DNA from: Taiwanofungus camphoratus
Lineage: Eukaryota > Basidiomycota > Agaricomycetes > Polyporales > Taiwanofungaceae
Assembly (NCBI GenBank): GCA_003999685.1
Contig: CP021227.1
Location: 434,001 to 498,000 of the forward strand
Direction of reading: 5' to 3'
Length of the DNA: 64,000 bases
Part shown: positions 33,832 to 63,401 of the stretch, one piece after another
How the letters are laid out: each line of letters opens with the position of its first letter
How positions within the stretch are numbered: position 1 is the stretch's first letter
The notes under the pieces: model-generated
The model's database searches: none
Seen by the model: only the letters and a program-made list of their open reading frames with translations
Told to the model about the DNA's origin: nothing
Program-made: the position numbers and the translations under genes

Positions 33832-34563
33832 GTCATAACTATGGGGGTGAGGCCCGGAATGCATGGTAATGGGGATTATATACTATCCACAAGTGCGAGT
33901 ATACATATGTTGTCAGCTCAATAACTTCGTGCGCAGTGTCGCAGCCATAATTTGGGAATCATGGGGCACATCTACAGTCCGTACTAGAGAGTACCCTGTC
34001 AACTTGGAATTCTCCTCCAGATTGCGCATGTCCTTCCGGAATAGACGTGAAAACCTGGGATCAGACTAGAGGTAATTCAATCTGGGAGAGAGATCTAGAT
34101 GTCAACAACTTATACTTGCACCATTTAGCACGTGGCCGTAACTCGTCGCAAGTGTCGACAGCAGTCCGTCGAGTTTTTAGTGCCAACTCGGACAGAGCCA
34201 AATGCGGAAAGCCTGGGGAGAGATCAATTCAATTTGGCATCTTGGCGAGCCGATTTTGGATTTGGATATCGATCTCTCTGAGGAGGTGTGTGAGGTTGCA
34301 TCGAGAACGAGGTGGTTCTAGCAAGTGTAGGTGAACAAACCTGCTGGGATACAAACGTGACGCGATCACGTGAATATCGTGTCGCATTGTTCTCCGCCCA
34401 GAGACGCGTCTATCGCCACCGCGGGCCACATCTTGACCTGGCCACACAAGCTTTGACTGCCATACCGGCTACTTAGAAGGACAAGACATCAAGGATGACC
34501 TCATTTTACCCCTTTTGGATCCGCTACCGTGAACTACCCTCCGATTTCTGTTACTACACTACA
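33832..34563. other. Spacer; left border of the inverted duplication at 34180
   Basis: 33832-34179 is unique and probably holds the 3' end of the FAD/BBE gene. From 34180 on, the sequence is the inverted copy of 62429 downward and of 1-1310, so the duplication border lies at 34180. 34180-34563 is the shared upstream region of kinase A. An in-frame ATG at 34495 is an alternative start. Confidence 0.7.
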
Positions 34564-37238
34564 ATGTCTCAGACTCAGTACACGAGCGCCGAATTGGCTG
34601 AGGCCAACGACCAAGTACCCCCTCTTCCGTCTCACTTCCCTCCACCGATAGTTGCACAATGTCATTCTACGCCTGATGGCACATCTTGCCCTCGAACACC
34701 TAAACGTAACCGACATTCAGCAGGTATGTGACAGGAATTCCATCTTTTTGGAAATCTCAATTTAGCGGTCACTGCACAGGCTCTGCACTGCAGCATACAC
34801 CGCTCAAGTCCAGGGCCATCCATAATGTGATTGGAAAAAATGGCTTGATATATGATGGCGCTGTCAAGGAATACGTTCAGACCGAATTCGTAGACAAGAT
34901 TCATCGTGGACTGCCAGTCCATGAATTTATTCGCACCGTCTGGGACTTTACTCCGAAGGATATGCCAGTGCTGTCAGGACTGCAGAGTTACTCGCTCCCT
35001 GTCGGAGCTATGAACTCCTATTTGCAATCCCCGGAGAGATTGAGCTATCCTTACCTGCAAAATATTCTGGAACATCTGCGGCGGCAAGTGGTTTCCGGCC
35101 ATTTCCAAGAAGGAAATCCATTCTCGGATGCTCGACGTATGTGTAGAGTGCGGTCGGTATTCGTGAACATGCAAGACACGGAGACGCGAGGGAACTTTAG
35201 CACGCTCAAGCCAGACTTAGCGTGGAGTACACCGAGAGGATGGCAGCACAAACACTGGGGTTGGCATCTGGGCTATATTGAGGTCAAGAAGGACGAAGAA
35301 GAACCTCTCGCGCGCAGTACAGATGTCCTGATCTCCAAAGACGCCTTTGATCAGGTATAATTTTATTATGGTATGGTATGGTATGGTATGGCAAGAGTTC
35401 TGATAGCTTGTATTACAGCCGCCACGGTCTTCCCACGGAATAAAACGAAAGAAACTACCGGCCGCTGATCAAGAAGCTGCAGTCGAACCACCAGCAAAGC
35501 GGTCTCGTTCGAATGACCATGTCAGCTCACCAGTGGACCACATTGCGAAACGAGTGCTCACGGGAGACGAAGTACGATCGGCCAAGTACATGAACGAGAT
35601 CATGTCTCACGGTGTGCGGTCTTATGCCACCGGCTTCATGGTCGAAAATACCACTGTGAAGCTGTGGTATGGTGATCGGATGGGTATCGTACAGTCCGAA
35701 GCATTTGACTTTCGTGAAGAACCGCACTTGCTGCTTCTTTCTGTTGCAGCCATCACGTTCGCCGATCACTTACGAATGGGCATCTGTCCGTTTGTGAAGT
35801 TTCCGACGACGGCTTACGACAGTTACATGGGTGTGAAGCTTGAACTAGACGACGGACTCGCCTTGAACCTGTCCAAGGAACCTCTTCCAAAATTGAAATT
35901 TTTGATCGACAACGAAAGGAAGGTGGCCACTGATTTTGGTGCTGTTGGTCGAGGCACGACGATAGTGCCTGTGAAGACGACGGGCACTTCTGCGAAGTTA
36001 TTTGGACGGGAGGATCTAGTGGCGAAGCTGGCATGGCCGTCTGCCGAGCGTGAAGCAGAGGATAACTTTGTTCGGATCATCCGGTGCAAGCTCAAGGAAC
36101 ACGCACCGCAGTACCTCGACCACGTAGTCGACATGAAGTGCTCGTTGACCGGTACCATGGCCGAAATGGGCCTTCCCAGAGCTCGTATGGAGGATCTTTC
36201 GCCATTCGACGAACGCGTGTTTCGACTGATGGTCATGAAGCGTTACGAGCCGCTCCACCTTGTTAACGGCGTCGACGAGTTCAAACTGGTGTTCGTCGAT
36301 GTTGTACGCGGTGAGCTCCTTTCTGATGTCCGCCATTACATTTGTGTTGACGGATGGTTGTGGTTGTGGTAGCTCATCATTGGGTGTGGGAGACGGCAGG
36401 GGTTTTGCATCGTGACGTGAGCGCGAACAACATCATGTTCTACAGAGGAGGCAACGACAATCGTGCTATGGGGGTACTATGTGACTGGGACCTGGCGATG
36501 ATGAAACCAACAGAAGGGGAGGTTGCGAAAGAAGAGGAAGAAGAAGAGGACGACGACGAAGATACAGCGGCTCCCATTTGTTCACCCACAAGTCGGGATC
36601 AGCCTGACAAAAGTTTGCCTGAAAAGAATGGAAAGTCGGACGTGCAGAAGGCAGCTGTGCCCGAGTCCGGCAGCAAGCAGGAAGGAACACACAACGCCGC
36701 CTCGAAGAAGGTGGGTACAGCCGAGCAGCCTTCAAAGCGTCCTAGATATCGCACCGGCACGGGCCCGTTCATGGCGCTTGACTTGCTTTCTGCATCGAGG
36801 ACGCCTCTGCATGTCTACCGTCACGATCTGGAATCGTTCTTCTTTGTTCTCGCATGGGTGTGCGCTGTGTTCGATCCTGTCAACCATAAGTTTGGGCACC
36901 TCACGGCCTGGGAACAGCCTCAATTGGAAAAGATCGGCGACAGCAAGAGGAACTTTTTCCGCAACGGAGACATATTTGATCAAACATTTTCGCGCTCGCA
37001 CCGTGACTACCAGGAGCTCTGTCGAGTATGGGTCGGGCCGCTTTATGTCATATTTCGCGATATCGCCATTTGGAGCCAGCAGATAGACACGCTGCGGAAC
37101 AAGCGCAGGTTCGCAGTGCGTCTTGGAAACGAGCAATGGAGAGATTCGATGAACAACGAGATAGCACAGCTGAAAGCGAGGATCAAGAGCTTAATCACCT
37201 ACGAAACGTTCATGAAATGTCTTGGCGAAACGGTATAA
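34564..37238 (+). CDS. FunK1-type protein kinase A, copy 2 (intact)
   Basis: Four exons (34564-34723, 34780-35354, 35419-36310, 36373-37238) with GT-AG introns of 56, 64 and 62 nt give an 830-residue protein. The FunK1 kinase core is split: N-lobe-like residues in exons 2-3, then the catalytic loop HRDVSANN at about residues 555-562 and the metal-binding DWD at about 580-582 in exon 4. Between DWD and the C-lobe is an acidic Glu/Asp run (about 600-615) and a charged low-complexity linker. A basic patch (PAKRSRS) near residue 270 could be a nuclear signal. Compared with copies 1 and 3 it is nearly identical up to about residue 730, then its last 95 residues diverge sharply. It is convergent with kinase B. 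Substrate unknown. Confidence 0.9.
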
Positions 37239-38178
37239 TGTGCACATACTCCTTACGTCTGGGCCGTTGACCTCCAAACCACTCACTTCATGCTATTTTA
37301 CTGTCCAGATAGACGCGCGACACAGCCTCCGCTTTTGTCCTGGTATCTTCTTGCTCTCGTTGTGCAACATTGCGAGGACGCATTCACTGGTCATCCACTC
37401 GGCCCAAATGAATATACCAGGACAGGAATACGTGATACAAAGGTATCACCTGTGTGAGGATGTATGTCCTTGTGTTACCACGCACCGGCAGGTCAGCTAC
37501 CATGTAGATAGTCCTGTAGCCTTACATGTAGCAAGTCTTTTGTGTCGTATTGACACTCATGGCGCACCAAGAATGAATCCACCTGTTTTGCAGCTGCTGG
37601 AATGTAGCGTGTCCTTTGATAGAATTGAGCAAATGAAGCATGCACATGTGTGAACTATTCCGACCGTATCTTCACCAGCACTGAACTGCGGCTGGTGACT
37701 ATCGGTTAGTGTTGGGAAGGCAGAGATGGATTGAATCTTCTGCAAAGTACCAGGCAACTGAATTGTCGGGGTGGTAACAGCGGCCGGCGGACTGGAATGG
37801 ACTGAATGGCAGGAGTCTGCCAACAACACTACAATCGGTCCAAGCTGGGTCTAACCTCCGTATTCAGGAACTGGTCACAAGCACAATCGGCACCTCCACG
37901 TTGGAACAAGGACGTTCTCACAAAGTTGGTCCATGACATTGTGCCAACACAATCTCTTTCTTGTAAGTATGTAAGTATTGAGTACCAACAAGTCACCGGA
38001 AGGGTAACAGTAACGGGCTATAGAAAAAACTGGAATAAATTACTTTGCATAAATACTGGAGATGAACGTTAACACCATCGGCCAAGCAATTTAATATCTT
38101 TTGACTTGCGCTTTCGTCTCCTGAAATCTTTGGTCGGAAGCCTGATGGCCGAAACGACCCACTCGTCACGGCAATACG
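37239..38178. other. Spacer between convergent kinases A and B (left arm)
   Basis: Homologous in inverted orientation to 58431-59371, clearly less similar than the adjoining gene bodies. Both 3' UTRs must lie here. I see no conserved reading frame or RNA gene. Confidence 0.6.
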
Positions 38179-40634
38179 TTACAGCATGGCGGATGGGATA
38201 CGAGCTGATGTTCTCAGCCGTTTGCTCTCCGGGAGCTCGACGTTGTCCATGGTGCGGCTATCTCGTTTCCTGCCACCAGTTCTCTTGTAGTGACACTCTT
38301 TACGCAGAAGATCGCCTGCCTTGTCATTGACTGGCCAAGAGTGGTCAGTCACCAACTCCGATCCTAGAACAGTGATCATCCTGTGATGCGAACGCAGAGT
38401 TTCGGCTAGAATTCGATCTTCATCGAGCTGAGTTCTGGCGCTCTCAGCTATCATCATTGCCATGCGTTCGTGGTCCAAGGTCCTGTTTCGATGCAATTCT
38501 GCCATATCTTGGGCTATTGTCAAGCACTGATACTCTCTCGCGCGTTGTGTTTGCGGATCCAGACCCTCACTTGCGCTGCTGGACGAGGTGGCAATTTTTG
38601 TGTCAGAAAAGGCTACATTGTAATGCGCCTTGAAGAACATCAACAATACGTCGATGATGTCGTTGAGGGGATGATTCATGCTAGCATCATCATGTTCAAA
38701 GCGAAGTTTGGTCCAATTGCGAAGGGTGATCCGTCCCTGCCACATGGCACTCATTTTCGCATCACCACAAATGTAATTGCCAGCATAAATTCGGGCTGCG
38801 TCGAAAAAACGGGACAGAAAGGCGCCGACGTCTTCACAGTTGTGTCGTAGATATCTGACTCCGTTATATAGGAGAACATGAAAGAAGGACTCGAGCTCGT
38901 CTTCAATTTCAGCGGCCTTATTTGCGTCATTCAATAACCGAGCAGACATGAATTGCCATGTTCCCTGTGGGAAACACTGTGAAAAACTGATCAATCAGAC
39001 TCAAACAATTGTCAAAACCTACCATGCGACCTGGCTGTCTTTGTCCATCCCTCGAAACATGCTCGCCTTCCCCATTCACATCCTTAGACAACGGCTTCGA
39101 GAGCTCCCAATCATTCAACATTCCCAAGCGTACCATTTTCCCAGATTCGTCAGTTTGCTCTACAATCAGCATATTACCGGAACTGATATCCCGGTGTAAA
39201 ATCCCGGCCTTCTCTACCGCCTGCATGTGACCTTGGTTCCATTAGTCAATGCGTGGACTCAGATATTATGAACCCGTACGGAAATTGAATCACCTTTCAT
39301 GCATTCATAAATCGTACACACCAGCTCGAAACCATCCTCGAAGTCGCTCAGAGGACGGCCTACTTCGGCTGTGACAAGACGATAATGCGTGTGAGCCTTC
39401 AGAGGGTTCCGTTTCGCATCGTTCTCGGAAGCATTTCGATCCCCTCTGTCTTTTTCATGATTCTGCTCCCAAATCCGTTGCGCGATTGTACGCTGCTCAC
39501 CGACATCGCCATGGCAAACCAGTGTCGGAACATATTGGACACCTTCCTTGTTCAGAACCCGAAGCACGTCACCTTCCTTGTCGATACCAGGAAGATCGAC
39601 CCGCCATGCGTCTTTGAGAAATACAAATTTTCGCGTCCTGCAATCTATTGCGACGTATCCGCGAGTGCCGCGACCCGCCATCCCTGAAGCCAGGAAATGG
39701 GGATTCCCAACCAGAAAGTACCGTTTACGTGTTCGCTTTCCCGTCGACGGTGACCTTTCAGATGTTTCCTGCGCTTCCTCCTCGACTGACAGCTTCCAGC
39801 GTGTACACCGTCCATCAAGAGACCTCCTGAAGTACTCTCGAACATAATCCCCGGATCTCAAGCCGCGCTGCGCCATATCGCTCATCAACCGGTAGTCCTT
39901 TGTTCCCCTGCCTACTACCGAGGCAGTAGGGTCGTGACCCTGCCCTTCATCCGAGAGACAGCAGAACCGCCATAGAAATTCCCCGAGCGTTTCGGGATGC
40001 AGATGGTAATTGAACTCCTCCGTGACGACTGCACCAGATCTGTCCCAGCGAAAGATGCGAGCGTGATCACAGGCAATCGTGAGGGCGAACAAGAACGTTC
40101 GGTGCTGATGCGCGAAGATCGTCGCAACATGCGCAGCCGTCTGGTTCACATCTCGTTGTCGTTGAGATGCGACTTCAGGCTCGGGCCTTTTGTGGTCCAC
40201 CAGATCGCCAGCTTGGGTTTCCTTGCTCCACTCGACCCAGAGTTTCTGCTTGGACCAGCGTGGTCTACTACCATCCTTCGGTGCGTCTTTTTGAAGATAA
40301 AGACCAGCGTACGCCTTCTTCACTTCGCCTTCTTCGTCAGGCTTGGATGGTTTCAGGACGAACTGGTAGCCAGGGCAGAGCCCTGCTTTCTTCACACATT
40401 CAATCTGCATAGAAACATCAGTTGCAACAGGGTGAGACCTAAGAGTTGTATTCCGCAGTTGGGACATACAAATGGTCGGCTGAGATCCTTCTCAACGTGC
40501 TCCATCTCAGATTTTTTGAACACACCGTCGAAAGCTTGCGTGTACGTGGGCCGGCGGCGCGCTTGTCGAGGATGCAGCGGCACGAACGCCGTCATGAATT
40601 CGTCATACGGTAATTTTACAAACTTTTCTCCCAT
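38179..40634 (-). CDS. FunK1-type protein kinase B, copy 2 (intact)
   Basis: Four exons on minus (40634-40470, 40404-39294, 39231-39023, 38964-38179) with introns of 65, 62 and 58 nt encode 756 residues. The catalytic loop HRDISSGN is at about residues 438-445 and NDWELSK at about 465-471, the FunK1 variants of HRD and DFG. After the kinase core come [11 protein letters not shown] and [13 protein letters not shown], both common in FunK1 proteins, then a basic C-terminal tail. The start Met at 40634 is the first in frame; copy 1 reads about 35 residues further upstream, while here an in-frame stop precedes MGEKF, so the N-terminus is shorter. It is the only one of the three B copies with no disabling change. 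Kinase A lies tail to tail on its left. Confidence 0.88.
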
Positions 40635-40937
40635 GTTTTGTTTGCGTCTCAGTAACTACGGACTGGCGATAGCCACGAATGCCTGCTGAACTGCGTTTCC
40701 CGAGTGAGCAAAGGGACCATACGAAATGGCGTGGAGACGAGTGCTTACCTGAGGGTTGCGTGTAGCCCTTCAGGTGCCACGGTAGAGCAGAACACGCTGG
40801 ATTTCATGTTTGTGGCTCAAGGCGGCCAGTGGCCAGTGGCCACGATTGTTGACTGTGTAACTTGACCGCACATAAAGACAAGTCGCGGTCACGTGCGGAG
40901 GCGGCCATTTCGGGAAATGCAACTACGCCAGTAATTA
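40635..40937. other. Upstream region of kinase B copy 2
   Basis: Inverted homologue of 55680-55982. It probably holds the promoter; no distinct motif is claimed. Confidence 0.5.
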
Positions 40938-41062
40938 CATCAGGAAAAAGCATGTAACTATGTAGCTGGATGTGCTACCTTCCCGATCTATAGCACGATA
41001 TGGCGTTATAGATTTAGTTGTAGCTGCTGTAGCACCAGGAGTTACCCTGATTTTTCCTGATG
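40938..41062. mobile_element. 125-bp MITE with TA target duplication
   Basis: Ends are CATCAGGAAAAA and TTTTTCCTGATG, perfect inverted repeats that continue imperfectly to about 25 bp. TA lies on both sides (40936-40937 and 41063-41064). The right arm of the inverted duplication (about 55670-55690) has the empty site with one TA. Stowaway/Tc1-mariner-like by size and target. Confidence 0.9.
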
Positions 41063-41267: not shown

Positions 41268-42346
41268 TCAGTATGCGCTTCCCTCCACGGCGCCCTCCAG
41301 CTCATCGTCGCCCGCCGCCTCGATCACGACACACCAGAACACCCTCCCCCACGGCTCTGCGCCCTCGCCACCCTCGCCAGGCCCCCGCGCGCGCTCACAG
41401 CACACAAACCGCACGGGCTGGCCGTCCCAATACTTCATCATGTCGATCGCCAGCCCGCCCGGGAGGCGCAGGTCGACGCCGTGGGCGCCGAAGCGCAGGT
41501 AGTCGTAGCAGAAGTCGGCCGTGATGAGGTCCTGCGGCGCGGATGAGCGGGGCTGGACGTGCAGGGCTGCGCCACGGGAGCACTCACCGCGGGGCCGAAC
41601 TCGACCGCCTTCCTCCGCGCGCGGTCCCGGAAGAAGGACTGGCGGCGGGCGGAGCTCTTCGCCGCCGCCGCCGCCCCCGCGCCTTCGTCACTCGCGAACC
41701 GCAGCGACGGCGTCTTGTTCTCCACGGGCGTCTGGGGCGGGAAAGGCGGTGCCTGCGCGTCACCCTCCAGGCGGGTGTGTTCCAGGTAGGGCATGGTCGT
41801 GATGAGCGGGGACAGCGCCCACGGCATCGACGGGGACGCCAAGTCCTGCTCCAGCGTAGGGTCCATGTAGCTATCGGGGGGGTGGGGGGGTGAGCGAACG
41901 CAGAAACCGGTCAGACCTGGCGCTGGAAGGCGTCTGCTCACCTCATGAACTTGAGCGCGGCGCCGAACCCCCAGGGCAGCTTCAGCGGCCGCGCGAACGT
42001 GTTGCCAAACAGGATGTCGTCCGCGGAGTGCGGCTGCAGGAACCTGCCTGCGCCGCCCATCGATTCGGGTGCGGCATGTCAGACTCAGGAGCACACACCC
42101 ATGGGCGGCGTTTCCGCGTGCGAGGCGTACCTTACCTTGTACCTGAATGCTCCACGTCACACCGTCCCGCTTGTCGAAGTAGGCGCTGTCGCCGGGCCCG
42201 CCGCTGGGATCTAGGAAGCCCTTGATGTACACCGCGACCCGGCCCTCGAAGGCGTCGCTCTTGATCTCGACGGGTACGTCCGAATTTACGGACACAGGGG
42301 CAAGCTCGTCGACGGAGGGACCGGCGAGCACGCGCAGACGAGGCAT
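41268..42346 (-). CDS. DUF1769-family (Duc1/UPF0590-like) protein, intact
   Basis: Four exons (42346-42136, 42047-41942, 41870-41588, 41531-41268) with introns of 88, 71 and 56 nt join in phase to a 287-residue protein. It starts MPRLRVLAGPS, continues with FEGRVAVYIKGF and WSIQVQGRFLQPHSADDILFGN, and ends with DFCYDYLRFG and MKYWDGQPVRFVCCER. These match my memory of the DUF1769 fungal family, which is named Duc1 in fission yeast and is linked to the cell cortex; the role here is unproven. The coding sequence is GC-rich. The 3' part (from 41870 down) belongs to the inverted duplication and reappears truncated at 45391-45960. Shorter relics are at 2044-2246 and 63402-63603. No lesion seen. 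Confidence 0.82.
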
Positions 42347-43149
42347 TCTTCCAATTTCTGCGAATTCTTAAGACTAGGATGCAGGAGGTGAGTTGGCATG
42401 AGGGTTCGAGAACGGCGAGCCAAGTACTAGTCCGGCTACTCGAAGATGGCCAAAGTTGTAAGGTCGGTTGCCAAACGGGTGCGGTGCAGGCGCTGCCACT
42501 GACATGGAGGACACCGCCTGGCACTAGCAGCCTGTTCTGGTCAACGAACGGCATTCCCCGGGCGGTGGCGGGCGTTCCATATGGGGACAGTACGTCATTG
42601 TCAGGATGATTGTGGATCGCTGGGTGAATGCAGCAAGATGGACGCAAATCGACGACACCGATCGTGACTTAATACTTTCTGAGTCATGTGCGTGTGAGAC
42701 AAGTGTCACAACTTGGCGGACATGGGAGGGATGCGGTGCAGTCGTGTTTTGTGTCGTAGAGGGGCGTTCGAGCTACGCCCACTACAGGAATGAAAGCAGC
42801 GACGAAAAAGAAAAAACAAAGTGTACCCTACGATGCGCAACAATAAGGCTGTAAACTATGTATCGGGAATATATATCCTACGTGGAAGCAAATGCCTCGA
42901 GCTGCACACACAACATGAGCAGTTGGTGTCAGCGAAGTGGAACCTGGCGTGAATGCCGATGGCGTGCAACAACAGAGTCCGTAGTCCGACGGGGAAGTAT
43001 CCAGCATCGTGTCTACACGAACGCCATGAAAAAAAAAAAAGCCGAAACGCACGCATTGTCCCAATATCCCAATACCCCAACACAAACCAAACCAAGCTAA
43101 CCAGAGCCCAACCCAAACCAGAACCCGTCAAAGAAAAAACACAGCGCTA
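42347..43149. other. Spacer between DUF1769 and DUF7729-type genes
   Basis: Upstream region of the minus-strand DUF1769 gene and downstream region of the next minus-strand gene. No conserved reading frame or repeat recognised; a 12-A run lies near 43029. Confidence 0.5.
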
Positions 43150-44684
43150 TCACCACCCCGCCCCCACGACGGCCAACACGGCCACGAGCACCGCCCACAC
43201 ACACACGCCCCTCCCGCGCCCCGCCCTGCTCACCGCCTGCTCCTCCTCCTGCACGTACCCCCTCCCGCACGCCGCGTCCGCCGCGCGCGCCGCGCCCGCA
43301 TACGTCGCGCGGAGGCCCGTGGCGTTCAGGCCCGCGCGCACGTACTCCGCCATGACGTCCTGCGTGCACGCGCCGCAGCTCGGCGTGCCCGTGCCCGCGC
43401 CCGCGCGCGGGAGCGGCGCGCCGAGCGGGAGCGCGTAGAACGACACGTCCGCGAAGCGCGGCGCGGCGCGGACGGCGTCGAGGTAGCAGTACGCGTTCGA
43501 CGTCGTGTTCGGGAGGCACGCGACCGTGCGCAGGAGCGTGTAGGATTGCAGGCCTGCGGTGCGGATGGAGGGGGGGCGTGGGCGTGAGCGTGGGCGCGGG
43601 GGATGCAGGGAGGGGGGAGGGGGGAGGGGGAGGGGGGCACGTACCGAGGAGGGCGTTCGCGACGAAGACGTTGTCCGCGCGCATCTCAGCCGCGCAGGCT
43701 GTCTGCAGCGCCCCCGCGAACGATGCCATGTTCTCCGCGCACTGGTCCGCGCTGAGGTCCGTGTTGCACGTCCCCCACACGATCGCGTTGAGCAGCGTCA
43801 GGTTCGTCTGCGCCTGCGGGTTGGGCGCGGCAGTCAGGAGTGTCGAGCGGGCATCGTCAGTCGTCAGTCGTCGACCGCTGAGCACAGGCACCACGACGCA
43901 CCTTGATGAACGCAGACGAGCTCTGCACGAGCAGCGAGAACGCGCGGCAGGACCGGAACGCGGCCTGCTCGGTCATGTTCTGGAAGAACACCTCGCAGCT
44001 CTCTGTCGAAAAGTTATTTGACAGCGTTGTGTCGAACGCTTGCGGGAACGGCGTCGGCAGCACTGGCGGCGTCGCTGGGATCGTGGGGACTGCTGTGGTC
44101 GATGACAATGGTGGAGACGAGGCGGATGAGGCAGACGAGGTGGTGGGTGTAGACGGTGTTGACGGGGCTGATGACGACGACGACGACGACGACTGTACAG
44201 ATGGGAACACGATGATGCTGTCTGACGCACCCGCACCGCTGCCCGAATCCTGTGGCTCGGGGGACCTCTTGTGATTGTGCGGATGCCAGTCAGACAGCGT
44301 CGCCGCCCATGTCACCCAGTCCGAGGGGCGGCTGGGTGCGAGTGCGTCGAGGGCGGCAGGGTGCGTGAGATAGCGCGTGGAGAGCGTGACCAACACGAGA
44401 GCAGCAGGGACGAGGAGGACGGTCCAGCGTGTGTGGCGCGCGGTGCGCTGCTTATCAGCGACGGCGCGAGCGTGGGGACGCTGAGCACCGACGGCTAGAC
44501 TTGGGCGGACGGGGGACGGTCCAAGGGGGGACTCGGAGGTGCTGGAGCGGGAGGGCGAGGACGTGGGCGAGGTCGCCGAGGAGCCAGACGAGGACTCGTC
44601 TGCGTGACGGTGGTCGGTGAGGTTGTGCGCACCTTGGTGTGTGAGCGTGCGGGGCGGGGCAGGCGAGGGCGGGGGAGTGAACAT
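43150..44684 (-). CDS. DUF7729-type secreted or membrane-anchored fungal protein
   Basis: Three exons (44684-43902, 43813-43645, 43553-43150) with introns of 88 and 91 nt join in phase to 451 residues. Start chosen at MFTPPPSPAP (44684); an in-frame Met 15 codons upstream (44729) is possible. A Ser/Pro-rich cytosolic N-terminus is followed by one membrane segment at about 87-106, a Ser/Thr-rich stalk, then a Cys-bearing domain with FFQNMTEQAAFRSCRAFS, IVWGTCN and SNAYCYLDAV motifs and spaced cysteines as in the fungal DUF7729 domain. The C-terminus is hydrophobic (about 434-451), either a GPI signal or a second membrane segment. It lies in the single-copy spacer of the inverted duplication. 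Very GC-rich; intron 2 is C/T-rich on the coding strand. Function unknown. Confidence 0.8.
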
Positions 44685-45390
44685 GGCGAGGCCGAGGTGG
44701 GCAGTGGGACGCTGTCTTCTTTTGTCCACGGAGAGGCACGGGGCCTGCTCGAAACGAGTGTGCTATGAAACGAGTGACGCTGCACGGGCTGGGCCGCGGA
44801 TGCAGAGCGCGCAGAGCACCTGAAACGGAAGGCAGCCAATGTTAGCGGAACGCGAGGGGGCAGCGCGTGCAGGACTCACGTATATCAGGGAATGGCAGCA
44901 AGACAGCCTGAGCGCAGAAAGCAGAGGCACGAGCGCGCGACATGAAAAGATCAGCGCGGCCGTGTTTCTCCTTCGTTCTCATGGGCTAGGAACCGCTGCC
45001 AATCTGGGTCTGTCCCCTGCGATGTCACCCCGGGCCTCGACTCGCCGCTCGATCGCCGTGTTCCTGTCAGACGCGTCTCGTCCAATCACACAGCGCAGAG
45101 CAGGCCTGGACCCCGTCAGAACCCGCCGGCTGGCACGTGCTCTCATCTCACCAGGGAAGACCGCTTCAGCCACAAGTCATGGTCTCGGCCAGAAGGACAG
45201 GGAGAGGATGTGTGCATGCACCTGAACTACGTACACACACAAAACAAGGCATTACATGCTGTATCGGGAATGATTCAATGATGGACGCTGCCAATTGGAG
45301 AGTGACATAGCCACAATATATTCTATCACTCACAGATGGCAGATCCTCTGAAGCTCTGATGTCTCATACAGTTATCATGTCCGCACTCAT
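44685..45390. other. Upstream region of the DUF7729-type gene; spacer
   Basis: No supported gene. The right border of the spacer and start of the right duplication arm lie near 45391. Confidence 0.5.
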
Positions 45391-45960: not shown

Positions 45961-46147
45961 TGCTGGACTGGTGGGAAAGTGACAGCGTCATAACGATACG
46001 ACTTGCCTCCGGCCAAATTATAGCAATCAAATCTCTGGCCCGGGTGGCTGGATTTGGTCTTGATGACTCAAGGAGAGTGATGCGGAGAAAAGAAGCATCA
46101 GGATCCGTGCGAGAGCTTTCATTTGAAGCCTTCAACCTCAGAAGGCA

Positions 46148-52246: not shown

Positions 52247-52276
52247 AACGGCCAGAACATGGTGCTCACTACACGG

Positions 52277-53876
52277 TGATGAGTCCCGTAGCCTCCTGGG
52301 CCCCGAATCGCGATTATTAGGAGCTTTCTAATCCCCCAACCGACCACTCTAAGACTCTCCTACAGCCTACGACAGGAGGGATAAGTTCCTATAATATTTC
52401 TAACGCCCCCTCTCCTTCCTAAACCCTCCTAACACCCTACGAAGTCTTGCGAAGTCACACGAGGTGCTACGAGATTTCGAATGCTAGACGCGAAGTCCCT
52501 AACTCCTGCTAAGTCCACTATCGGACACTGCTGGCCCTCCCATACTGTTCCATTGGATCTAGGTCCTATCTACTACGTCACTCATCCCGGGCTTAGCTAA
52601 GAAGTCTTAGCTAAGTCTCTTCTAGCTTTTGTGATTGCAGCTACCTCCGATAGGCTCCAAAACGGTCCGAAGTTCCGGAAGTTGGACTTAGGAAGCCTTG
52701 TGCACCCCCATGGGTCTCGATCCTATGCCATAAGGTCATCCTAGGGCGTACCCATATAACCCTCCACCCAGTTAGGGCACCTCCTGCCCCGATTAGGCCA
52801 AGTCCCGCTGCTAAGAACTTTGTGCACTCTTAGCCCACTAAGATAGGTGATCACGGCGCATGGCTGCTCTCGGATAGTCATCCCGCCCTTGTGAATGAAG
52901 TTGGTCACCTTTCTACCGTACGTAGTTCCCCTGTTTCAGTTCCTAATTAGTTCCTATCCTCCTCGTGTTCACTTCGGAGTCCATGCGCTTTAGTACACAT
53001 TTCGGACTCGTAAGGATCACTTCGCGCAAGAATAGTTCACCTCATGCTCCCCTATTTAGTCAGAGGTAGTTTACTATGTACCAGAGAGACCCCTCAGTGC
53101 ACGCTTCTCTCTTTGGAATACTAGTTCCCCTGTAGCTCCGATCTCAGGAAAGTGCCGCGAGTACAACCTTAGGAACGGTCCTAAAGTCCCTAAGTCTCCA
53201 CCCCAGCTCCGTTTCAGTACCTTTGAACTACGTCTGCGCTCGCGATATATCTACGAACCACGTCTACACTTCCCGAACTACGCACTACGATCTACGAAGT
53301 CGCCGTGACTTCGCGCCCTTCAGCACCTCTTATAGCATCTACCCGGTGGGCCTCTGCCTTAGTTATACCCTTAGGCTCACGTTGTGTCATCCCTACGTCC
53401 TATGAATAGCCCTACGACTCTCCCATAGCCTTAGTTTCAGGCTATAGTACATCTCCCTACGCCCTCGAACTCTCTGACCTCTCCTACAGGTCTCCTACGC
53501 TAGCCAAACCTCGCCCACCTTGCTCTAACAAACCTCTAAACCTTACGCCCTTTAGCTAACTCTAGCTAAAAGGACTTCGCAGCATCTACGAAGTCAGCTC
53601 GTGCAACTTAGCTAAAACTTCGAAGGACTTTGCAGAATCTCGAAGAACTTCGCGTACTTTGGAGGGCCTCGCAAGGCCTTAGGGATAGTATAGCAATTAG
53701 GAACAAGATCCTGTTGTGCAGGACCCTTGACCCCTTACTCCCCTACTTACAAAAACAAGACATACAGGTTTCCCGGTATCATACAGATTGTAGCTCCTAT
53801 CCTCACAGTTATCACACTACCCCACAGCCACGTTGCGGAGCACTCCCTAGGTACCAGGGTCCCCTAGGTTGTATCA
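52277..53876 (+). mobile_element. R3: 1600-bp non-coding element in the LINE 3' region
   Basis: TGATGAGTCC...TTGTATCA, flanked by ACGG and ACAG (a 4-bp duplication with one change). Same orientation as R2. Confidence 0.8.
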
Positions 53877-53909
53877 ACAGCAACACACCATCCCCAACAA
53901 CTCCTCATA

Positions 53910-54452
53910 TGATACAATTTCTTTTATCGCATATCTTATCAGTTGGACCTCGGATCGGTCCCGTGACCTTTCGCTTCTAGGATGGGCCTCGCGTAAACCC
54001 AGCTTCTTCACACAGCATCTTGACTCATCGCTGCTTATGGTACAGGCCCCGGTTACTCATGGACACTGACTCATATTGGGCCCCGCTTACACATTCCGTC
54101 TTATGCTTACTGATTGCTAATATGGCCCGATGACTCATATCGCCTTACTTACGCTTACTCATGCTGATTCTTAGACCACGTGCCATGGTCCGTGCGCAGA
54201 GTAGAATACGTATATAAGGCCCTGTACTTTGTAGGTCGGACCTTAAGTTTGATCTGGTTACCAAGTAGCTAGTTACCACTAGCAATCTTATACTCGTATC
54301 TTGCGACCTCTCGCTTCATACTCGAGTACTCGCTCAACTCTATCGACTTCGCCTAGGAGGACATACGCAGTGTCCATAAAGCCTCACTACTATCTCTAGT
54401 AGCCAGGTCCTCACGTTCGAGGCTTCCCGGTCGTTGATACCAGTTTGTATCA
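53910..54452 (+). mobile_element. Solo LTR of Ty3 family B in the LINE 3' region
   Basis: 543 bp, TGATAC...GTATCA. Flanks TCATA and CCATA (one difference). More diverged from element B than the solo LTR in R1, so older. Confidence 0.85.
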
Positions 54453-54479
54453 CCATAACACAACCAACACACACCTGTG

Positions 54480-55051
54480 TGTTACAAGGCAGTAATGGTG
54501 CGAACATACATTTTCATTTTTCTTCACTATACTGGACTAGCAGGTCATGTACACTTACAATTATCACCATTATTCCTGACGGGCTGACCATCATCCACTT
54601 AGTTATGGACTGTTCCTCAGAAGGGACCACTCGGGCCTCTGACTTATGAATGCTTAGGTGCTGGTACCCGTGGGAGTGAGGGCTGGCTTGCCCTAAACCC
54701 ACCATAGTACTTAAGGGGTTGGCTCACTGCGGAGCACCCCAATCTTGTCCTCCTTAGTTACACCGTGTACTTTGGTGCCGTTGTTACCATTTGTACGATA
54801 CGACTGGGCTTAGGCCCCTATACCTTCGTCTATTCAACAGGTCGCGTTAGACCATCTATATCCTTGTGACTACACTAGGACTTAGGCTGTGACTTAGCCC
54901 GCAACTCTCTCGAGACCACTGGGCTAGCGGTTGAAGACTTAGACGTGTACTTGTCATCAGCCAGGCTGACTCCTCGTCCACACTTCACGCCTGACTACTC
55001 AACGACTCCCTGTCACGGTAGTCACCTACGGGCGTAGACTCCCCCGTAACA
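54480..55051 (+). mobile_element. Solo LTR of family D in the LINE 3' region
   Basis: 572 bp, TGTTACAAGG...CCGTAACA. Flanks CTGTG and CCGTG (one difference). Confidence 0.85.
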
Positions 55052-55270
55052 CCGTGCACCAGGGGAACAATACCGACTTGCGCCCCTGGAAGAAGACCAA
55101 CCCCAACCACAAACTTCTCCATTGTACCCCCTTATGCAAGCAACTTTCCTGATCTCACACAGGATAATATGCCAGTTCAGACCATATATGCAACAAAAAC
55201 AACCGTGGTAGCCCTATTTTATTCCGATACCTAACAAGAACCACATACCCAACAGAGCCAAAACCCCCAC

Positions 55271-55620
55271 CCATGCATCTACTATATCCCCCCATAACCG
55301 AACTCGTCGCCTTCCAACCTCTTAGAATGTTTCTGGCATAGTATAGAACAGTGGCGCATTCTAATGTCTACTATTTGTACCTACCGGGAAACACCACGTC
55401 TTAGCACTAGTTTGCTTGTTGCGGTATATAAATGCTGATTTCATCATCATCATCAACAAGCAAACTAGTGCTAAGATGCGGTGTTACCCAGGATATACAA
55501 AATAGTAGGTATTAGAATACGCTACTAATCTACTAGTACACTACTTTCGAGTAGCATTTTGGGGTTGGTGGACGAAATCGGGTTCGGTTGTGAGAGTAAT
55601 ATAGTAGATACATGAATGAC
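55271..55620. repeat. Long inverted repeat in the LINE 3' UTR
   Basis: Two arms of about 150-165 bp (about 55271-55420 and 55455-55620), imperfect, most similar close to the centre (near-perfect for about 30 bp around TTAGCACTAGTTTGCTTG). The centre (about 55421-55454) is the reverse complement of the element's 5' end at 46163-46200, including the ATG-triplet run. It would form a strong hairpin in RNA. Confidence 0.8.
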
Positions 55621-55636
55621 TGTCTTGTCTCTGTTG

Positions 55637-55651: not shown

Positions 55652-55982
55652 AGTTGTCTGGAGAGACTGGTAGTAGAACTGGTAGTATTAATTACTGGCG
55701 TAGTTGCATTTCCCGAAATGGCCGCCTCCGCACGTGACCGCGACTTGTCTTTATGTGCGGTAAGTTACACAGTCAACAATCGTGGCCACTGCCGCCTTGA
55801 GCCACAAACATGAAATCCAGCGTGTTCTGCTCTACCGTGGCACCTGAAGGGCTACACGCAACCCTCAGGTAAGCACTCGTCTCCACGCCATTCCGTATGG
55901 ACCCTTTGCTCACTCGGGAAACGCAGTTCAGCAGGCATTCGTGGCTATCGCCAGTCCGTAGTTACTGAGACGCAAACAAAAC
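55652..55982. other. Upstream region of kinase B copy 3
   Basis: Inverted homologue of the region before kinase B copy 2, lacking the 125-bp MITE. No gene recognised. Confidence 0.5.
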
Positions 55983-58430
55983 ATGGGAGAAAAGTTTGTA
56001 AAATTACCGTATGACGAATTCATGACGGCGTTCGTGCCGCTGCATTCTCGACAAGCGCGTCGCCGGCCCACGTACACGCAAGCTTTCGACGGTGTGTTCA
56101 AGACATCTGAGATGGAGCATATTGAGAAAGATCTCAGCCGACCATTTGTATGTTCCAACTGCGGAATACAACTCTTAGGTCTCACCCTGTTGCAACTGAT
56201 GTTTCTATGCAGATTGAATGTGTGAAGAAAGCAGGGCTCTGCCCTGGCTACCAGTTTGTCCTGAAACCATCCAAGCCTGACGAAGAAGGCGAAGTGAAGA
56301 AGGCGTACGCTGGTCTTTATCTTCAAAAGGATGCACCGAAGGATGGTAGTAGACCACGCTGGTCCAAGCAGAAACTCTGGGTCGAGTGGAGCAAGGAAAC
56401 TGAAGCTGGCGATCTGGTGGACCACAAAGGGCCCGAGTCTGAAGTCGCATCTCAACGACAACGAGATCTAGACCAGACTGCTTCGTATGTTGCGACGATC
56501 TTCGCCCACCAGCACCGAACGTTCTTGTTCGCCCTCACGATTGCCTGTGATCACGCTCGCATCTTTCGCTGGGACAGATCTGGTGCAGTCGTCACGGAGA
56601 AGTTCAACTATCATCTGCGTCCAGAACTGCTCGGCGAATTTCTATGGCGGTTCTGCTGTCTCTCGGATGAAGGGCAGGTCACAACCCTACTACCTCAGTA
56701 GTAGGCAGGGGAACAAAGGACTACCAGTTGATGAACGATATGGCGCAGCACGGCTTGGGATCTGAGGATTATGTCCAAGAGTACTTCAGGAAGTCTCTTG
56801 ACGGATGGTGCACACGCTGGAAGCTGTCAGTCGAGGAGGAAGTGCAGGAAACATCCGAAACGTCGTCGTCGACGGGAAAGCGAACGCGTAAACGGTAATT
56901 TCTGGTTGGGAATGCTCACTTCCTGGCTTCAGGCATGGCAGGTCGTGGCACTCGCGGATACGTCGCAATAGATTGCAGGACGCGAAAATTTGTATTTCTC
57001 AAAGACGCATGGCGGGTCGATCTTCCTGGTATTGACAAGGAAGGTGAGGTGCTCCGGGTATTGAATGAGAACGGTGTCGAACACGTCCCGACCCTGGTTT
57101 GCCATGGGGACGTCGGTGGGCAGCGTACCATCACGCAACGGGTTTGGAAGCAGAATTATGAAAAAGACAGAGGGGATCGAAATGCTTCCGAGAACGATGC
57201 GAAACGGAACCCTCTGAAGGCTCACACGCATTATCGTCTTGTCACGGCCGAAGTAGGCCGTCCTCTGAGCGACTTCGAGGATGGTTTCGAGCTGGTGTGT
57301 ACGATTTATGAATGCATGAAAGGTGATTCAAATTCCATACGGGTTCATAATATCTGAGTCCACGCATTGACTGATGGAACCAAGGTCACATGCAGGCGGT
57401 AGAGAAGGCCGGGATTTTACACCGGGATATCAGTTCTGGTAATATACTGATCGTAGAGCACACGGACGAGGATGGGAAAAAAACATGCTGGGGAATGTTG
57501 AATGATTGGGAGCTCTCAAAGCCTTTGTCTAAGGATCTGAATGGTGAAGGTGATCATGTTTCCAGGGATGGACAAAGACAGCCAGACCGTGTGGTGAGTT
57601 TTGACAATTGCTTGGGTCCAATTGATCAGTTTCTCACTGTTTCCTGCAGGGAACATGGCAATTCACGTCTGCTCTGTTATTGAATGACGCAAATAAGGCC
57701 GCTGAAATTCAAGACGAGCTCGAGTCCTTCTTTCATGTTCTTCTATATAACGGAGTCAGGTATCTACGACACAACTGTCAAGACGTCGGCGCCTTTCTCT
57801 ATGAGTTCTTTGACGCAGTCCAACTTTGTGGTGGATTTTACATTTGTGGCAAAGATCAAATGAGTGCTATGCGGCACGGACTGATCACCCTTGGCAATGA
57901 AATCAAACTTCGGTTTGAACATGACGATGCTAGCAAGAATCATCCTCTTAACGATCTCATCGATGACTTGTTGATGCGGTTCAAGGCGCATTACAATGTA
58001 GTATTTTCTGACGCAAAACTTGCCACCTCGTCTAGCAGCGCAAGTGAGGGTCCAGATCCGCAAGAACAGGACGAGAGAGAGGATGAGTGCTCGACAATAG
58101 CTCAAGATATGGCAGAATTGCTTCCAAACGGGGCCTTGGACCACGAACGCCGGTCAACAAGGATAGTTGAGAGAGCCAGAACTCAACTCGATGAAGATCG
58201 AATCCTAGCCAATACTCTGCGTTCGCATCACGAGATGGTCACTCTTCTAGGATCGAAGTTGCTAACTCCCCGCTCTTGGCCAGTCAATGACAAGGCAGGC
58301 GATCTTCTGCGTAAAGAATGTCACTACAACTGGTGGCAGGAAACGAGATAGCCGCACCATGGACAACGTCGAGCTCCTGGAGAGCAAACGGCTGAGAACA
58401 TCAACTCGTGTCCCAACTGCCATGCTGTAA
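55983..58430 (+). pseudogene. FunK1-type protein kinase B, copy 3 (decayed)
   Basis: Exon layout matches the intact copy 2: 55983-56147, 56213-57322, 57385-57593 and 57650-58430. HRDISSGN and NDWELSK motifs remain in exon 3. Three changes disable it: a one-base loss near 56678 in a G run, a stop codon at 56896-56898 where copy 2 has Tyr, and a loss of about five bases near 58330 that shifts the last 40 codons. Splice sites are kept. Copy 2 is its closest relative, so decay followed the inverted duplication. Confidence 0.88.
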
Positions 58431-59371
58431 CGTATTGCCGTGACGAGTGGGTCGTTTCGGCCGTCAGGCTTCCGACTAAAGATTTCAGGAGACGAAAGCC
58501 CAAGTCAAAGGATATTAAATTGCTTGGCCGATGGTGTTAACGTTCATCTCCAGTATTTATACAAAGTAATTTATTCCAGTTTTTTCTATAGCCCGTGATT
58601 GTTACCCTTCCGGTGACTTGATGGTACTCAATACTTACATGCTTACAAGAAAGGGGTTGGGTTGGCACAATGTCATGGACCAACTCTGTGAGAACGTCCT
58701 CGTTCCAACGCAGAGGCGCTGATTGTGCTTGTGACCAGTTCCTGAACACGGAGGTTAGACCCAGCTTGAAGTTAGACCAATTGTAGTGTTGTTGGCAGAC
58801 TGCTGCCATTCAGCCCATTCCGGTCCGCTGGCCATTTCTACCACCCCGGCAATTCAGTTGCCTGGTACTTTGCAGAAGTTTGCCTTCCCGACACTAACCG
58901 ATAGTCTTTTTTTGCTTCACCGGGTTTAGCTAACCGATAGCCACCAGCCGCGGTTCAGTGTTCAGGATACGATCTGAATAAATTCACACATGTCCTTTGA
59001 TAGACCTGAGCGAAATGAAGCATGCACATGCTACATTTCAGCAGCTCAAAATTTGGTGGATTCAGCTGAGGCATTCTTGGTGCGCTATGAGTGCTAAATA
59101 CGACACAAAAGACTACATGTAGGGCTACAAGACTATCTACATGGCAGCTGACGTGCCAGTGCGTGGAAGGACGTACGTCCTCACACAAGCAACACCTTTG
59201 TACCACGCCCTGGCGTATTCCTTTAAACCGAGTGGATGGCCAGTGAATGGAGCCCTGGCAATGTGGCACAATGAGAGCAAGCCGTGGAGGCTGTGAATCG
59301 CGCGCGTCTATATGGACACGAAAATAGCATGAAGTGCACGTCAGGGGGGTCAACGACGGACCATGTGTGTA
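58431..59371. other. Spacer between convergent kinases B and A (right arm)
   Basis: Inverted counterpart of 37239-38178, noticeably more diverged than the kinase A body. Short frames on minus at 58537-59353 are partly mirrored in the other arm, but the frames are not kept. Confidence 0.55.
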
Positions 59372-62043
59372 TTATGCCATTTTCCCAAGACAATTCATGA
59401 ACATTTCATACGTGATCAAGTCCCTGGACTGGGCCTTCAGTTGTATGATCTCGGCGTTTATGGCATCTCTCCATTGCAAATCTTTAAGCGCTACTGCGGC
59501 CGCGCGATTGCTCCGCAGAGTCTCTATCAGTTGGTTTCGGATGGCGATATTATTGAATCTGGTATATAGAGGCAAGAGCCACCTCTGCACAAGCTCTTGG
59601 TAGTCCGAGTGCGAGTGGACAAACATGGCATAGAAGATATCAATGCTGCGAAAGAAATTCCTCTTGCTGTCACCGATTTTTTCCAATCGAGGCTGTTCCC
59701 AGGCCGTGAGGTGCCCAAACTTATGGTTGACAGGATCGAACACAGCGCACACCCATGCGAGAACAAAGAAGAACGATTCCAGATCGTGACGGTAGACATG
59801 CAGAGGCGTCCTCGATGCAGAAAGCAAGTCAAGCGCCATGAACGGGCCCGTGCCGATGCGATATCTAGGACGCTTTGAAGGCTGCTCGGCTGTTCCCACC
59901 TTCTTCGAGGCGGCGTTGTGTGTTCCTTCCTGCTTGCTGCCGGACTCGGGCACAGCTGCCTTCTGCACGTCCGACTTTGCATTCTTTTCAGACAAACTTT
60001 TGTCAGGCTGATCCCGACTTGTGGGTGAACAAATAGGAGCCGCTGTATCTTCGTCGTCCTCTTCTTCTTCCTCTTCTTTCGCAACCTCCTCTTCTGTCGG
60101 TTTCATCATCGCCAGGTCCCAGTCACATAGTACCCCCATAGCACGATTGTCGTTGCCTCCTCTGTAGAACATGATGTTGTTCGCGCTCACGTCACGATGC
60201 AAAACCCCTGCCGTCTCCCACACCCAATGATGAGCTACCACAACCACAACCATCCGTCAACACAAATGTAATGGCGGACATCAGAAACGAGCTCACCGCG
60301 TACAACATCGACGAACACCAGTTTGAACTCGTCGACGCCGTTAACAAGGTGCAGCGGCTCGTAACGCTTCATGACCATCAGCCGAAACACGCGTTCGTCG
60401 AATGGCGAAAGATCCTCCATACGAGCTCTGGGAAGGCCCATTTCGGCCATGGTACCGGTCAACGAGCACTTCATGTCGACTACGTGGTCGAGGTACTGCG
60501 GTGCGTGTTCCTTGAGCTTGCACCGGATGATCCGAGCAAAGTTATCCTCTGCTTCACGCTCGGCAGACGGCCATGCCAGCTTCGCCACTAGATCCTCCCG
60601 TCCAAATAACTTCGCAGAAGTGCCCGTCGTCTTCACAGGCACTATCGTCGTGCCTCGACCAACAGCACCAAAATCAGTGGCCACCTTCCTTTCGTTGTCG
60701 ATCAAAATTTTCAATTTTGGAAGAGGTTCCTTGGACAGGTTCAAGGCGAGTCCGTCCTCTAGTTCAAGCTTCACACCCATGTAACTGTCGTAAGCCGTCG
60801 TCGGAAACTTCACAAACGGACAGATGCCCATTCGTAAGTGATCGGCGAACGTGATGGCTGCAACAGAAAGAAGCAGCAAGTGCGGTTCTTCACGAAAGTC
60901 AAATGCTTCGGACTGTACGATACCCATCCGATCACCATACCACAATTTCACAGTGGTATTTTCGACCATGAAGCCGGTGGCATAAGACCGCACACCGTGA
61001 GACATGATCTCGTTCATGTACTTGGCAGATTGTACTTCGTTTTCCGTGAGCACTCGTTTCGCAATGTGGTCCACTGGTGAGCTGACATGGTCATTCGAAC
61101 GAGACCGCTTTGCTGGTGGTTCGACTCCAGCTTCTTGATCAGCGGCCGGTTGTTTCTTTCGTTTTATTCCGTGGGAAGACCGTAGCGGCTGTAATACAAG
61201 CTATCAGAACTCTTGCCATACCATACCATACCATACCATAATAAAATTATACCTGATCAAAGGCGTCTTTGGAGATCAGGACATCTGTACTGCGCGCGAG
61301 AGGTTCTTCTTCGTCCTTCTTGACCTCAATATAGCCCAGATGCCAACCCCAGTGTTTGTGCTGCCATCCTCTCGGTGTACTCCACGCTAAGTCTGGCTTG
61401 AGCGTGCTCAAGTTCCCTCGCGTCTCCGTGTCTTGCATGTTCACGAATACCGACCGCACTCTACACATACGTCGAGCATCCGAGAATGGATTTCCTTCTT
61501 GGAAATGGCCGGAAACCACTTGCCGCCGCAGATGTTCCAGAATATTTTGCAAGTAAGGATAGCTCAATCTCTCCGGGGATTGCAAATAGGAGTTCATAGC
61601 TCCGACAGGGAGCGAGTAGCTCTGCAGTCCTGACAGCACTGGCATGTCCTTCGGAGTAAAGTCCCAGACGGTGCGAATAAATTCATGGACTGGCAGTCCA
61701 CGATGAATCTTGTCTACGAATTCGGTCTAAACGTATTCCTTGACAGCGCCATCATATATCAAGCCATTTTTTCCAATCACATTATGGATGGCCCTGGACT
61801 TGAGCGGTGTATGCTGCAGTGCAGAGCCTGTGCAGTGACCGCTAAATTGAGATTTCCGAAAACATGGAATTACTGTCACATACCTGCTGAATGTCGGTTA
61901 CGTTTAGGTGTTCGAGGGCAAGGTGTGCCATCAGGCGTCGAATGACATTGTGCGACTATCGGTGGAGGGAAGTGAGGCGGAAGAGGGGGTACTTGGTCGT
62001 TGGCCTCAGCCAATTCGGCGCTCGTGTACTGAGTCTGAGACAT
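59372..62043 (-). pseudogene. FunK1-type protein kinase A, copy 3 (one nonsense codon)
   Basis: Exons on minus: 62043-61884, 61827-61253, 61188-60297 and 60234-59372, with introns of 56, 64 and 62 nt identical in place and size to copy 2. Catalytic HRDVSANN and DWD motifs are intact. A TAG at 61729-61727 (codon 87) replaces the CAG Gln codon of copies 1 and 2, a C-to-T change before A. Everything else stays open, so decay is recent or the site needs checking. The last 95 residues differ strongly from copy 2, although the first 730 are almost the same. Confidence 0.88.
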
Positions 62044-63401
62044 TGTAGTGTAGTAACAGAAATCGGAGGGTAGTTCACGGTAGCGGATCCAAAAGGGGTA
62101 AAATGAGGTCAGCCTTGATGTCTTGTCCTTCTAAGTAGCCGGTATGGCAGTCAAAGCTTGTGTGGCCAGGTCAAGATGTGGCCCGCGGTGGCGATAGACG
62201 CGTCTCTGGGCGGAGAACAATGCGACACGATATTCACGTGATCGCGTCACGTTTGTATCCCAGCAGGTTTGTTCACCTACACTTGCTAGAACCACCTCGT
62301 TCTCGATGTAACCTCACACACCTCCTCAGAGAGATCGACATCCAAATCCAAAATCGGCTCACCAAGATGCCCAAATCGAATTGATCTCTCCCCAGGCTTT
62401 CCGCATTTCGCCTCTGTTCGAGTTGGCACCTCTTCATGCAAGTTGCTCAGCCGTCATGCTCTGTAAAAAAGGATAGTCAACCTAGTCACAAATCTAGTCC
62501 CCAAATTGTACCAATGGACTAGCTAGTCATTTTTCTCAACCGCATCTATCCAAATTTGGAGAAAACAGTCATGCATCAAGGTGTAGTCGATTCAAGCGAC
62601 TAATGCGTGACTATGCTCCCTGATTTAGTCACGATAATAGTCTCCTAGCGCAATTTGGGGACTACGGTTAACTATCCTTTTTTACAGAGTGTCATGTAGC
62701 ACAGGATCAATGACAACGACAAAACACAATTGATGCACGAATCAGTGCTAAGTACTACGGAGCTACCTCAGTTGAGAGCACGGTATGGAATGTTGACTAT
62801 ATCATGGTTAAACGCAGTCGATGGCCCCATTCGTGAGTTGTCAAAGATCTCCTCCGGGCAACCGTTTAGTATGAAAAGAAGTCGCTACGTCGGGAACATG
62901 CCTGAGAACATGCTATCGCTGCCACCATTCCGACTACTGGCGTCTCCGCCGTCATACAATGACGAATATCAGGGACATATCACAGGTCGGTTTTCGTGTC
63001 ATTTGTATGATAGCCCTGCTATTGCAGACCGCCAGGAAGGTGGCTCGCATATTTTGTGTCAAGGAAGATCACTCCCGGTGCGCGGGGCGCTCTTCACGAT
63101 CGCTTTGCACTCTACATGTATGCTGGATGAGGTTATCGATGACTTGTCGCATCGGAACTAGTGGAACTGGCCCGAATGACCGATCATCGTAGTCGATGGT
63201 CTAATTTTGTTTCATTAATAGGCTTGAGCTTCAATTCGCCAGGTTTCCCCACCGCGTCCTTGACTGATTGTCCTGAGATGGTCCTTGGACTCGTTCATTG
63301 AAGACATCCCGCACGACCTTCTTGAAGCGCGGTGGGTTTTCCCTGCTATAGTCGTGCCCGCGTGCACTCCACAGACACGCTATGGCACAGGACCCCATCA
63401 C
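62044..63401. other. Spacer upstream of kinase A copy 3; part of the direct repeat
   Basis: Near-identical to 926-2043 apart from the 231-bp insertion at 62459-62689 and small indels. The frame at 62730-63161 is interrupted in the left copy, so it is not supported as a gene. Confidence 0.55.
62459..62689. mobile_element. 231-bp MITE-like insertion
   Basis: Inverted ends CTCTGTAAAAAAGGATAGT and its complement are perfect for 19 bp, then imperfect. GTCATG lies on both sides (62453-62458 and 62691-62696), with one extra T on the right. The left direct repeat (around 1336) has the empty site. No coding frame. Superfamily uncertain; hAT-like or Tc1-like are both possible. Confidence 0.85.

Follow-up and report, generated by a model that had tools for sequence, protein, structure and literature searches.

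The FunK1 family of fungal kinases (PF17667) has undergone great expansion, and little is known about what these kinases do. Here, a cluster of FunK1 genes was analysed in a stretch of 64,000 nucleotides from Taiwanofungus camphoratus (contig CP021227.1, positions 434,001–498,000 of the forward strand), hereafter the window, in which two FunK1 genes and part of a Duc1 gene are repeated in two inverted arms. The closest known case is the flip/flop inverted repeat of Saccharomyces chromosome XIV, where inverted paralogous genes surround other sequence, the 4-kb arms are almost identical through repeated homogenisation, some strains carry mobile elements in one arm and an inversion polymorphism was shown (PMC9731477). 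Duc1 (PF08588) was described in fission yeast as a protein of endoplasmic reticulum–plasma membrane contacts (PMC11449445). In the window, too, inverted paralogous arms were found around other sequence, with near-identity in the body of the FunK1-A genes but not in FunK1-B, Duc1 or the FunK1-A tail. Unlike in Saccharomyces, homogenisation here would be patchy, and the locus is viewed in one assembly only, whereas inversion polymorphism was shown there. The locus probably belongs to the known type of homogenised repeats, and its interesting part is the body/tail chimerism of the FunK1 genes. We consider it highly probable that an older inverted duplication within a FunK1–Duc1 cluster was patchily overwritten by ectopic gene conversion.

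Coordinates are window positions; negative values and those above 64000 lie on the same contig outside the window, and the self-comparison took in a 20-kb flank on each side. The genome searched comprised 15 contigs with 33,194,378 bases (33.19 Mb), the window being on the contig designated C8. An inverted duplication of 34180–41870 at 45391–62429 had been proposed by the first-pass annotation together with a self-dotplot as a check, and self-comparison of the locus did show both arms. The outer pair, 34180–40937 and inverted 62429–55689, is 91.3% identical over 6,810 aligned columns, and the inner pair, 41090–41863 and inverted 46161–45402, is 80.1% identical, both far beyond chance. The gene order C–B–A (C being Duc1) is the same in both arms. 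The comparison also revealed a direct repeat of about 12 kb reaching past both window ends, the first gene of its second copy being common to the right inverted arm. When the flanks are counted, FunK1-A is present three times and FunK1-B four times in the cluster:

-1740..1309, minus strand: FunK1-A1, with a frame shift in exon 3
3215..5801, plus strand: FunK1-B1, in direct repeat D1
34180..37238, plus strand: FunK1-A2, outer gene of the left arm, open over three modelled exons, the start exon lying outside the model
38022..40649, minus strand: FunK1-B2, kinase gene of the left arm, two long frames open
55968..58587, plus strand: FunK1-B3, kinase gene of the right arm, frame broken near 56.7 kb
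59375..62429, minus strand: FunK1-A3, outer gene of the right arm, one nonsense codon in exon 1, common to the inverted and the direct repeat
64578..67158, plus strand: FunK1-B4, two long frames open, in direct repeat D2
-1737..10014, no strand: direct repeat D1, with FunK1-A1 (minus), a Duc1 3′ piece at 2047–2352 and FunK1-B1 at 3215–5801 (plus)
59385..71370, no strand: direct repeat D2, with FunK1-A3, a Duc1 3′ piece at 63409–63697 and FunK1-B4 at 64578–67158

The exon matches of A1, A2 and A3 to PF17667 exceed the membership cut-off of 24.1 bits, and the first long frames of B2 and B4 reach 90.4 and 93.0 bits, respectively; both gene types match the family, for which at least 169 matches, counted exon by exon, were found in the genome. 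B2 looks like an ordinary multi-exon gene, because a short stretch with an HRD-type motif (identified by eye) lies in another frame between its two open long frames. The earlier statement that the genes are intact in the left arm and lesioned in the right one is right for the arms themselves but does not extend to the entire cluster, in which A1, left of the block, is frameshifted and B4, right of it, has its two long frames open.

The outer edge of the block is sharp at 34180, leftward of which the likeness of A1 and A3 continues and A2 departs. On the inner side, the block ends within intron 2 of the left Duc1 gene, roughly 10–20 bases ahead of exon 3 (judged by eye). The four-exon model of the left gene (42346–42136, 42047–41942, 41870–41588 and 41531–41268), set against the 5′-truncated right fragment, confirmed that this breakpoint left a whole gene in one arm and only its tail in the other. 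The right arm is interrupted by a transposon nest:

41268..42346, minus strand: Duc1/DUF1769 (PF08588) gene, open, 287 residues, four exons
45391..46161 (match 45402–46161), plus strand: Duc1 fragment of the right arm, 5′-truncated in intron 2, from the arm alignment
46162..55636, no strand: transposon nest in the right arm, 9,475 bases, several elements

The nest is flanked by the 15-base direct repeat ATGGTAACGTATGAG at 46147–46161 and 55637–55651, therefore the right arm was contiguous before the insertion. A later insertion of a long interspersed nuclear element (LINE) had been supposed here; a reverse transcriptase and the target-site duplication at the insert edges were indeed found, but the insert consists of several elements. 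A LINE-like frame at 49643–52243 encodes an RVT_1 reverse transcriptase and RNase H, and the upstream frame at 46292–47368 has no clear domain. A second partial copy of the LINE-like element (52273–53878), a stretch at 53909–54453 resembling the long terminal repeats (LTRs) at 26508 and 33055, and other repeats complete the nest; the assignment of the 15-base duplication to any one of these elements is inferred.

Evidence for exchange came from the FunK1-A genes. All pairs of A1, A2 and A3 are 96–100% identical per 150 columns over 34239–36937, and then only 63–70% identical up to the stop codon; in A2, the near-identical body thus extends from 34180 to about 36930, and the old tail occupies approximately 36938–37235. 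Silent divergence (dS, Nei–Gojobori method with Jukes–Cantor correction, own script) was 0.008–0.042 in the body over the three pairs (0.024–0.034 for A2/A3), while the tail gave 1.26 for A1/A2, 1.85 for A1/A3 and 1.09 for A2/A3, the step falling within one exon in all three pairs. Expressed as silent differences per silent sites, the body and the tail showed 6.0/452.8 versus 36.2/58.3 in A1/A2 (Fisher p 9e-34), 13.0/450.3 versus 39.8/58.2 in A1/A3 (p 5e-34) and 11.0/450.5 versus 31.3/57.2 in A2/A3 (p 8e-25). Between A2 and A3, identity drops from about 99% to 65% in the tail and then recovers in the spacer before gene B, where 100-column windows show 77–98% along with indels and a single window at 67%; the A1 flank past the tail is unlike that of A2 and A3. 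That gene conversion can be driven by a structure of this kind had been suggested earlier, and the stepped silent divergence bears it out. Nonsynonymous divergence (dN) of the tails was 0.31–0.36. Since dN/dS is about 0.2–0.3, the tails are constrained, conserved modules. Selection at the protein level was ruled out as the cause of tail divergence by the same ratio and by the jump at silent sites.

The identity of the direct repeats is also uneven. Per 250 columns, D1 and D2 are 97.6–99.6% identical in the A body, 95–99% between the genes, 99–100% in the first part of B, 96–99% in later B and 90–92% at the far end, where the likeness fades out near 10014/71370. Such a profile speaks for patchwise homogenisation. 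In exons 3 and 4 of Duc1, dS was 0.12 between the left and right copies, and 0.305 and 0.33, respectively, between these and a copy on contig C2 (see below). B2/B3 gave dS of 0.10, 0.19 and 0.20 over three stretches. The Duc1 and B2/B3 values agree with one older inverted duplication, compared with which the FunK1-A body is younger and the tail older.

The FunK1-B genes look mosaic. The silent difference of B1/B2 in the first long frame was 0.11 and 0.00 in two 40-codon windows and 0.34–0.76 in the other full windows, and that of B1/B3 dropped to 0.11 in a single second-frame window, with values of 0.21 and 0.35 on either side. Among 235 variable third positions, the shared runs reached 12 for B1=B2 and 9 for B1=B3 (permutation p 0.0002 each), and 19 for B2=B3 (p 0.03; three pairs tested).

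We read the stepped silent divergence, the uneven repeat identity, the shared-site runs and the target-site duplication as follows. An older inverted segmental duplication would have copied a unit of Duc1 (3′ half), FunK1-B and FunK1-A, nested in a larger cluster with the 12-kb direct repeat. The left arm, which is joined to the intact Duc1 gene and the GC-rich DUF7729 core, is the most likely source, and the right arm would be the truncated, decaying copy. Later ectopic exchange between inverted and direct copies, probably by conversion rather than crossover or break-induced replication, would have replaced parts of the kinase genes, most of all the FunK1-A body of 2.75 kb; direction and timing are what we infer from these patterns. 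The conversion tracts seem to stop where the old paralogues differ most, and body conversion ending at such differences would therefore yield a gene with a near-identical body and an anciently different tail. Transposons inserted in single arms, the 9.5-kb nest later splitting the right one.

A protein of strain V7, P0187 (AcV7_003931, 853 residues, 161.5 bits to PF17667), offers a comparison beyond this assembly. It represents a protein-database cluster of nine sequences, and its identity to A2 is 99% across the region searched, which takes in the tail. The tail comparison gave 2 differences in 93 residues for A2, as against 40 in 92 for A1 and 41 in 91 for A3. In the exon-3 body, no differences from A2 were seen (alignment and intron-edge effects aside), one from A1 and four from A3. 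Exon 2 differs from A1, A2 and A3 at 5, 5 and 4 of 291 residues, and exon 1 at 2, 1 and 1 of 184, the A3 difference in exon 1 being its nonsense codon. The tail and the adjoining part of the body thus mark the locus, and exons 1–2 do not. P0187 differs from the A2 of the window in exons 1, 2 and the tail, and the search of this genome yielded no further tail of the A2 type, so the protein must come from another assembly.

Several observations weigh against the conversion reading. In its exon 3, P0187 sides with A2 (and A1), not with A3, so that body states are seen to mix freely in exons 1–2 alone. The A2/A3 tail is older than the adjoining spacer, therefore one of the tails would have to come from a further A-like gene. 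A donor of the tail was not found genome-wide, as each of the three tails matched only itself and the other two (66–71%), the other matches in the search with the A2 tail lying in the body part. Three-sequence recombination tests gave no significant result on A (0 of 3) and none on B after correction (0 of 10 tests, 12 being possible and two removed by the script's filter; best p 0.015); it is the divergence step, and not topology, that carries the case for exchange in FunK1-A. Finally, the evidence base is the sequence of one assembly plus protein-level data from V7.

Among the alternatives, the one that survives best is that recombination made the chimeras, that is, duplication breakpoints within FunK1-A, due to crossover or break-induced replication, linked a single body to each of three resident tails, and little conversion followed. 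The high A1/A3 identity begins at the body/tail switch and continues for more than 10 kb, resembling one long copied tract, but it is uneven within the tract (from 90–92% to 99–100%), which suggests further patchwise exchange. We regard this account as possible, if rather doubtful, for the locus; it overlaps the preferred reading, so the likelihoods given to the two need not sum to one, and it could hold for A1/A3 alone, where it is the main competitor.

A single inverted duplication followed by uniform decay, as implied by the first-pass annotation, would account for the shared C–B–A order and for the agreement between the silent divergence of Duc1 and FunK1-B (about 0.1–0.2). One age does not fit an A2/A3 dS of 0.024–0.034 in the body and 1.09 in the tail, and the block is nested in a larger cluster with a direct repeat; a single, uniformly ageing event is an incomplete description of the locus and improbable as its whole history.

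An assembly artefact, in which the arms or the chimeric genes were produced by mis-joined or cross-polished repeats, had been named earlier as what could overturn the inverted duplication. Near-identical repeats are difficult to assemble, and the locus is seen in an assembly, not in reads. However, the arms differ by 9% and carry private insertions with clean target sites, and P0187, from another assembly, has the same combination of A2 body and tail. The four published T. camphoratus monokaryon genomes, to which this window may or may not belong, are PacBio assemblies described as gapless (PMC8865532). An artefact is very improbable. That the arm is a mobile element is scarcely credible: there are several copies of it and many transposons nearby, but long A-type copies were found only on this contig (queries 34180–35180 and 36700–37900; elsewhere pieces of at most 216 bases), one end of the arm is situated upstream of a kinase gene and the other inside an intron, and terminal repeats were not seen at its edges, although no systematic search was made for them.

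Between the arms lies the centre with its DUF7729 gene:

41880..45390, no strand: centre, occurring once in the locus, containing the 5′ half of Duc1 and the DUF7729 gene, 57–69% GC in the 1-kb windows touched
43100..44762, minus strand: DUF7729 gene, extent approximate, only the frame 43860–44762 tested

The DUF7729 frame, aligned over 87% of its length as query, shares 99% identity with a protein of Taiwanofungus camphoratus. The centre of about 3.5 kb had been called single-copy, which is valid within the locus. In the genome as a whole, the Duc1 part of the centre (to 42476) has a relative with 81% identity on C2, and no match was listed for the rest, with 40 of 58 candidates scored in a search that skips very common words. 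The left Duc1 copy covers the PF08588 profile almost completely (226.3 bits, profile positions 1–243 of 246); in contrast to fission yeast Duc1, the gene is a bystander here, the 3′ end of which was copied along with the kinase genes. Its content in the cluster is one open gene and three 3′ pieces (2047–2352, 45402–46161 and 63409–63697); the right-arm fragment has a TAG inside the exon-4 match. On C2, a Duc1 and FunK1-B pair (2899770–2903771, loci L063 and L022) shows 81% and 77% identity, with a gene order opposite to that of the C8 arms, and its Duc1 copy is decayed, having two TGA codons inside the match and a changed start codon.

Further transposon insertions distinguish the copies. Two of them resemble miniature inverted-repeat transposable elements (MITEs):

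40938..41062, no strand: MITE-like element in the left arm only, with ends CATCAGGAAAAA and TA on both sides, the site being empty in the right arm
62459..62690, no strand: MITE-like insertion in D2, target duplication GTCATG, the site being empty in D1

Many genomic sites carry relatives of the left-arm element. The right end of the nest (55250–55636) is an imperfect self-inverted repeat of about 390 bases with 70% identity. Outside the arms, an LTR retrotransposon with reverse transcriptase, integrase and chromodomain occupies 26508–33606; it is young, since its LTRs are 99.8% identical, and four of the five flanking bases agree. LTR-like relatives of it lie at about 14383–14942 and at 53909–54453. 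The first of these splits a piece of a LINE-like element (13287–15528), also found at 47679–49289, and represents a nested insertion. An older LTR retrotransposon-like element at 16363–24659 has end repeats of 94.8% identity and a coding part in several separate frames. About 4 kb to the left of FunK1-A1, the cluster is neighboured by a gene of the mismatch-repair type, its open frame carrying MutS domains I and II (L006:3275–4030, minus strand, corresponding to window -6725 to -5970), for which no link to the exchange is claimed.

Three further FunK1 groups were compared, with 5 loci on C5/C6, 5 on C11 and 7 on C9/C5 (L013–L015, L017–L019, L025, L030–L032, L034, L036, L051 and L053–L056). In the C5/C6 group, L055 has a body like L051/L053 (95–100% per window) and a tail and 3′ flank like L056 (95–100%), the silent divergence swapping accordingly. 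In the C11 group, silent divergence in 60-codon windows was 0–0.14 over the first 360 codons and 0.03–0.51 later, remaining low in some pairs (L030/L034). The switches of the C9/C5 group were at the 5′ side and in the middle of the gene. After correction, three-sequence tests were significant in 3 of 12 cases in C5/C6 (four of the five loci, L053 being left out for its short frame), 2 of 30 in C11 and 21 of 100 in C9/C5, where 105 tests were possible and every site of one stretch was used, whether silent or not. Chimeric members are thus present in all three groups examined, but the body/tail position of the switch is not universal. Relative to the described expansions of the family, such body/tail chimerism did not turn up: none was recognised by title or the start of the abstract in the literature on FunK1 with gene conversion, recombination or family expansion, a search covering few subscription papers.

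Altogether, the locus bears the signature of ectopic exchange between copies, both inverted and direct, of an expanded kinase family, with a sharp silent step inside one exon. Very tentatively, and as a rather unlikely generalisation, FunK1 might be a recombining repertoire, in which ectopic exchange keeps the bodies alike and joins them to constrained, anciently diverged C-terminal tails, as in a recognition or specificity system. The chimeras of the three further groups fit this, though the switches of the C9/C5 group fall elsewhere in the gene. If homogenisation of the body and diversity of the tail proved general, FunK1 genes would be candidates for recognition or signalling specificity.

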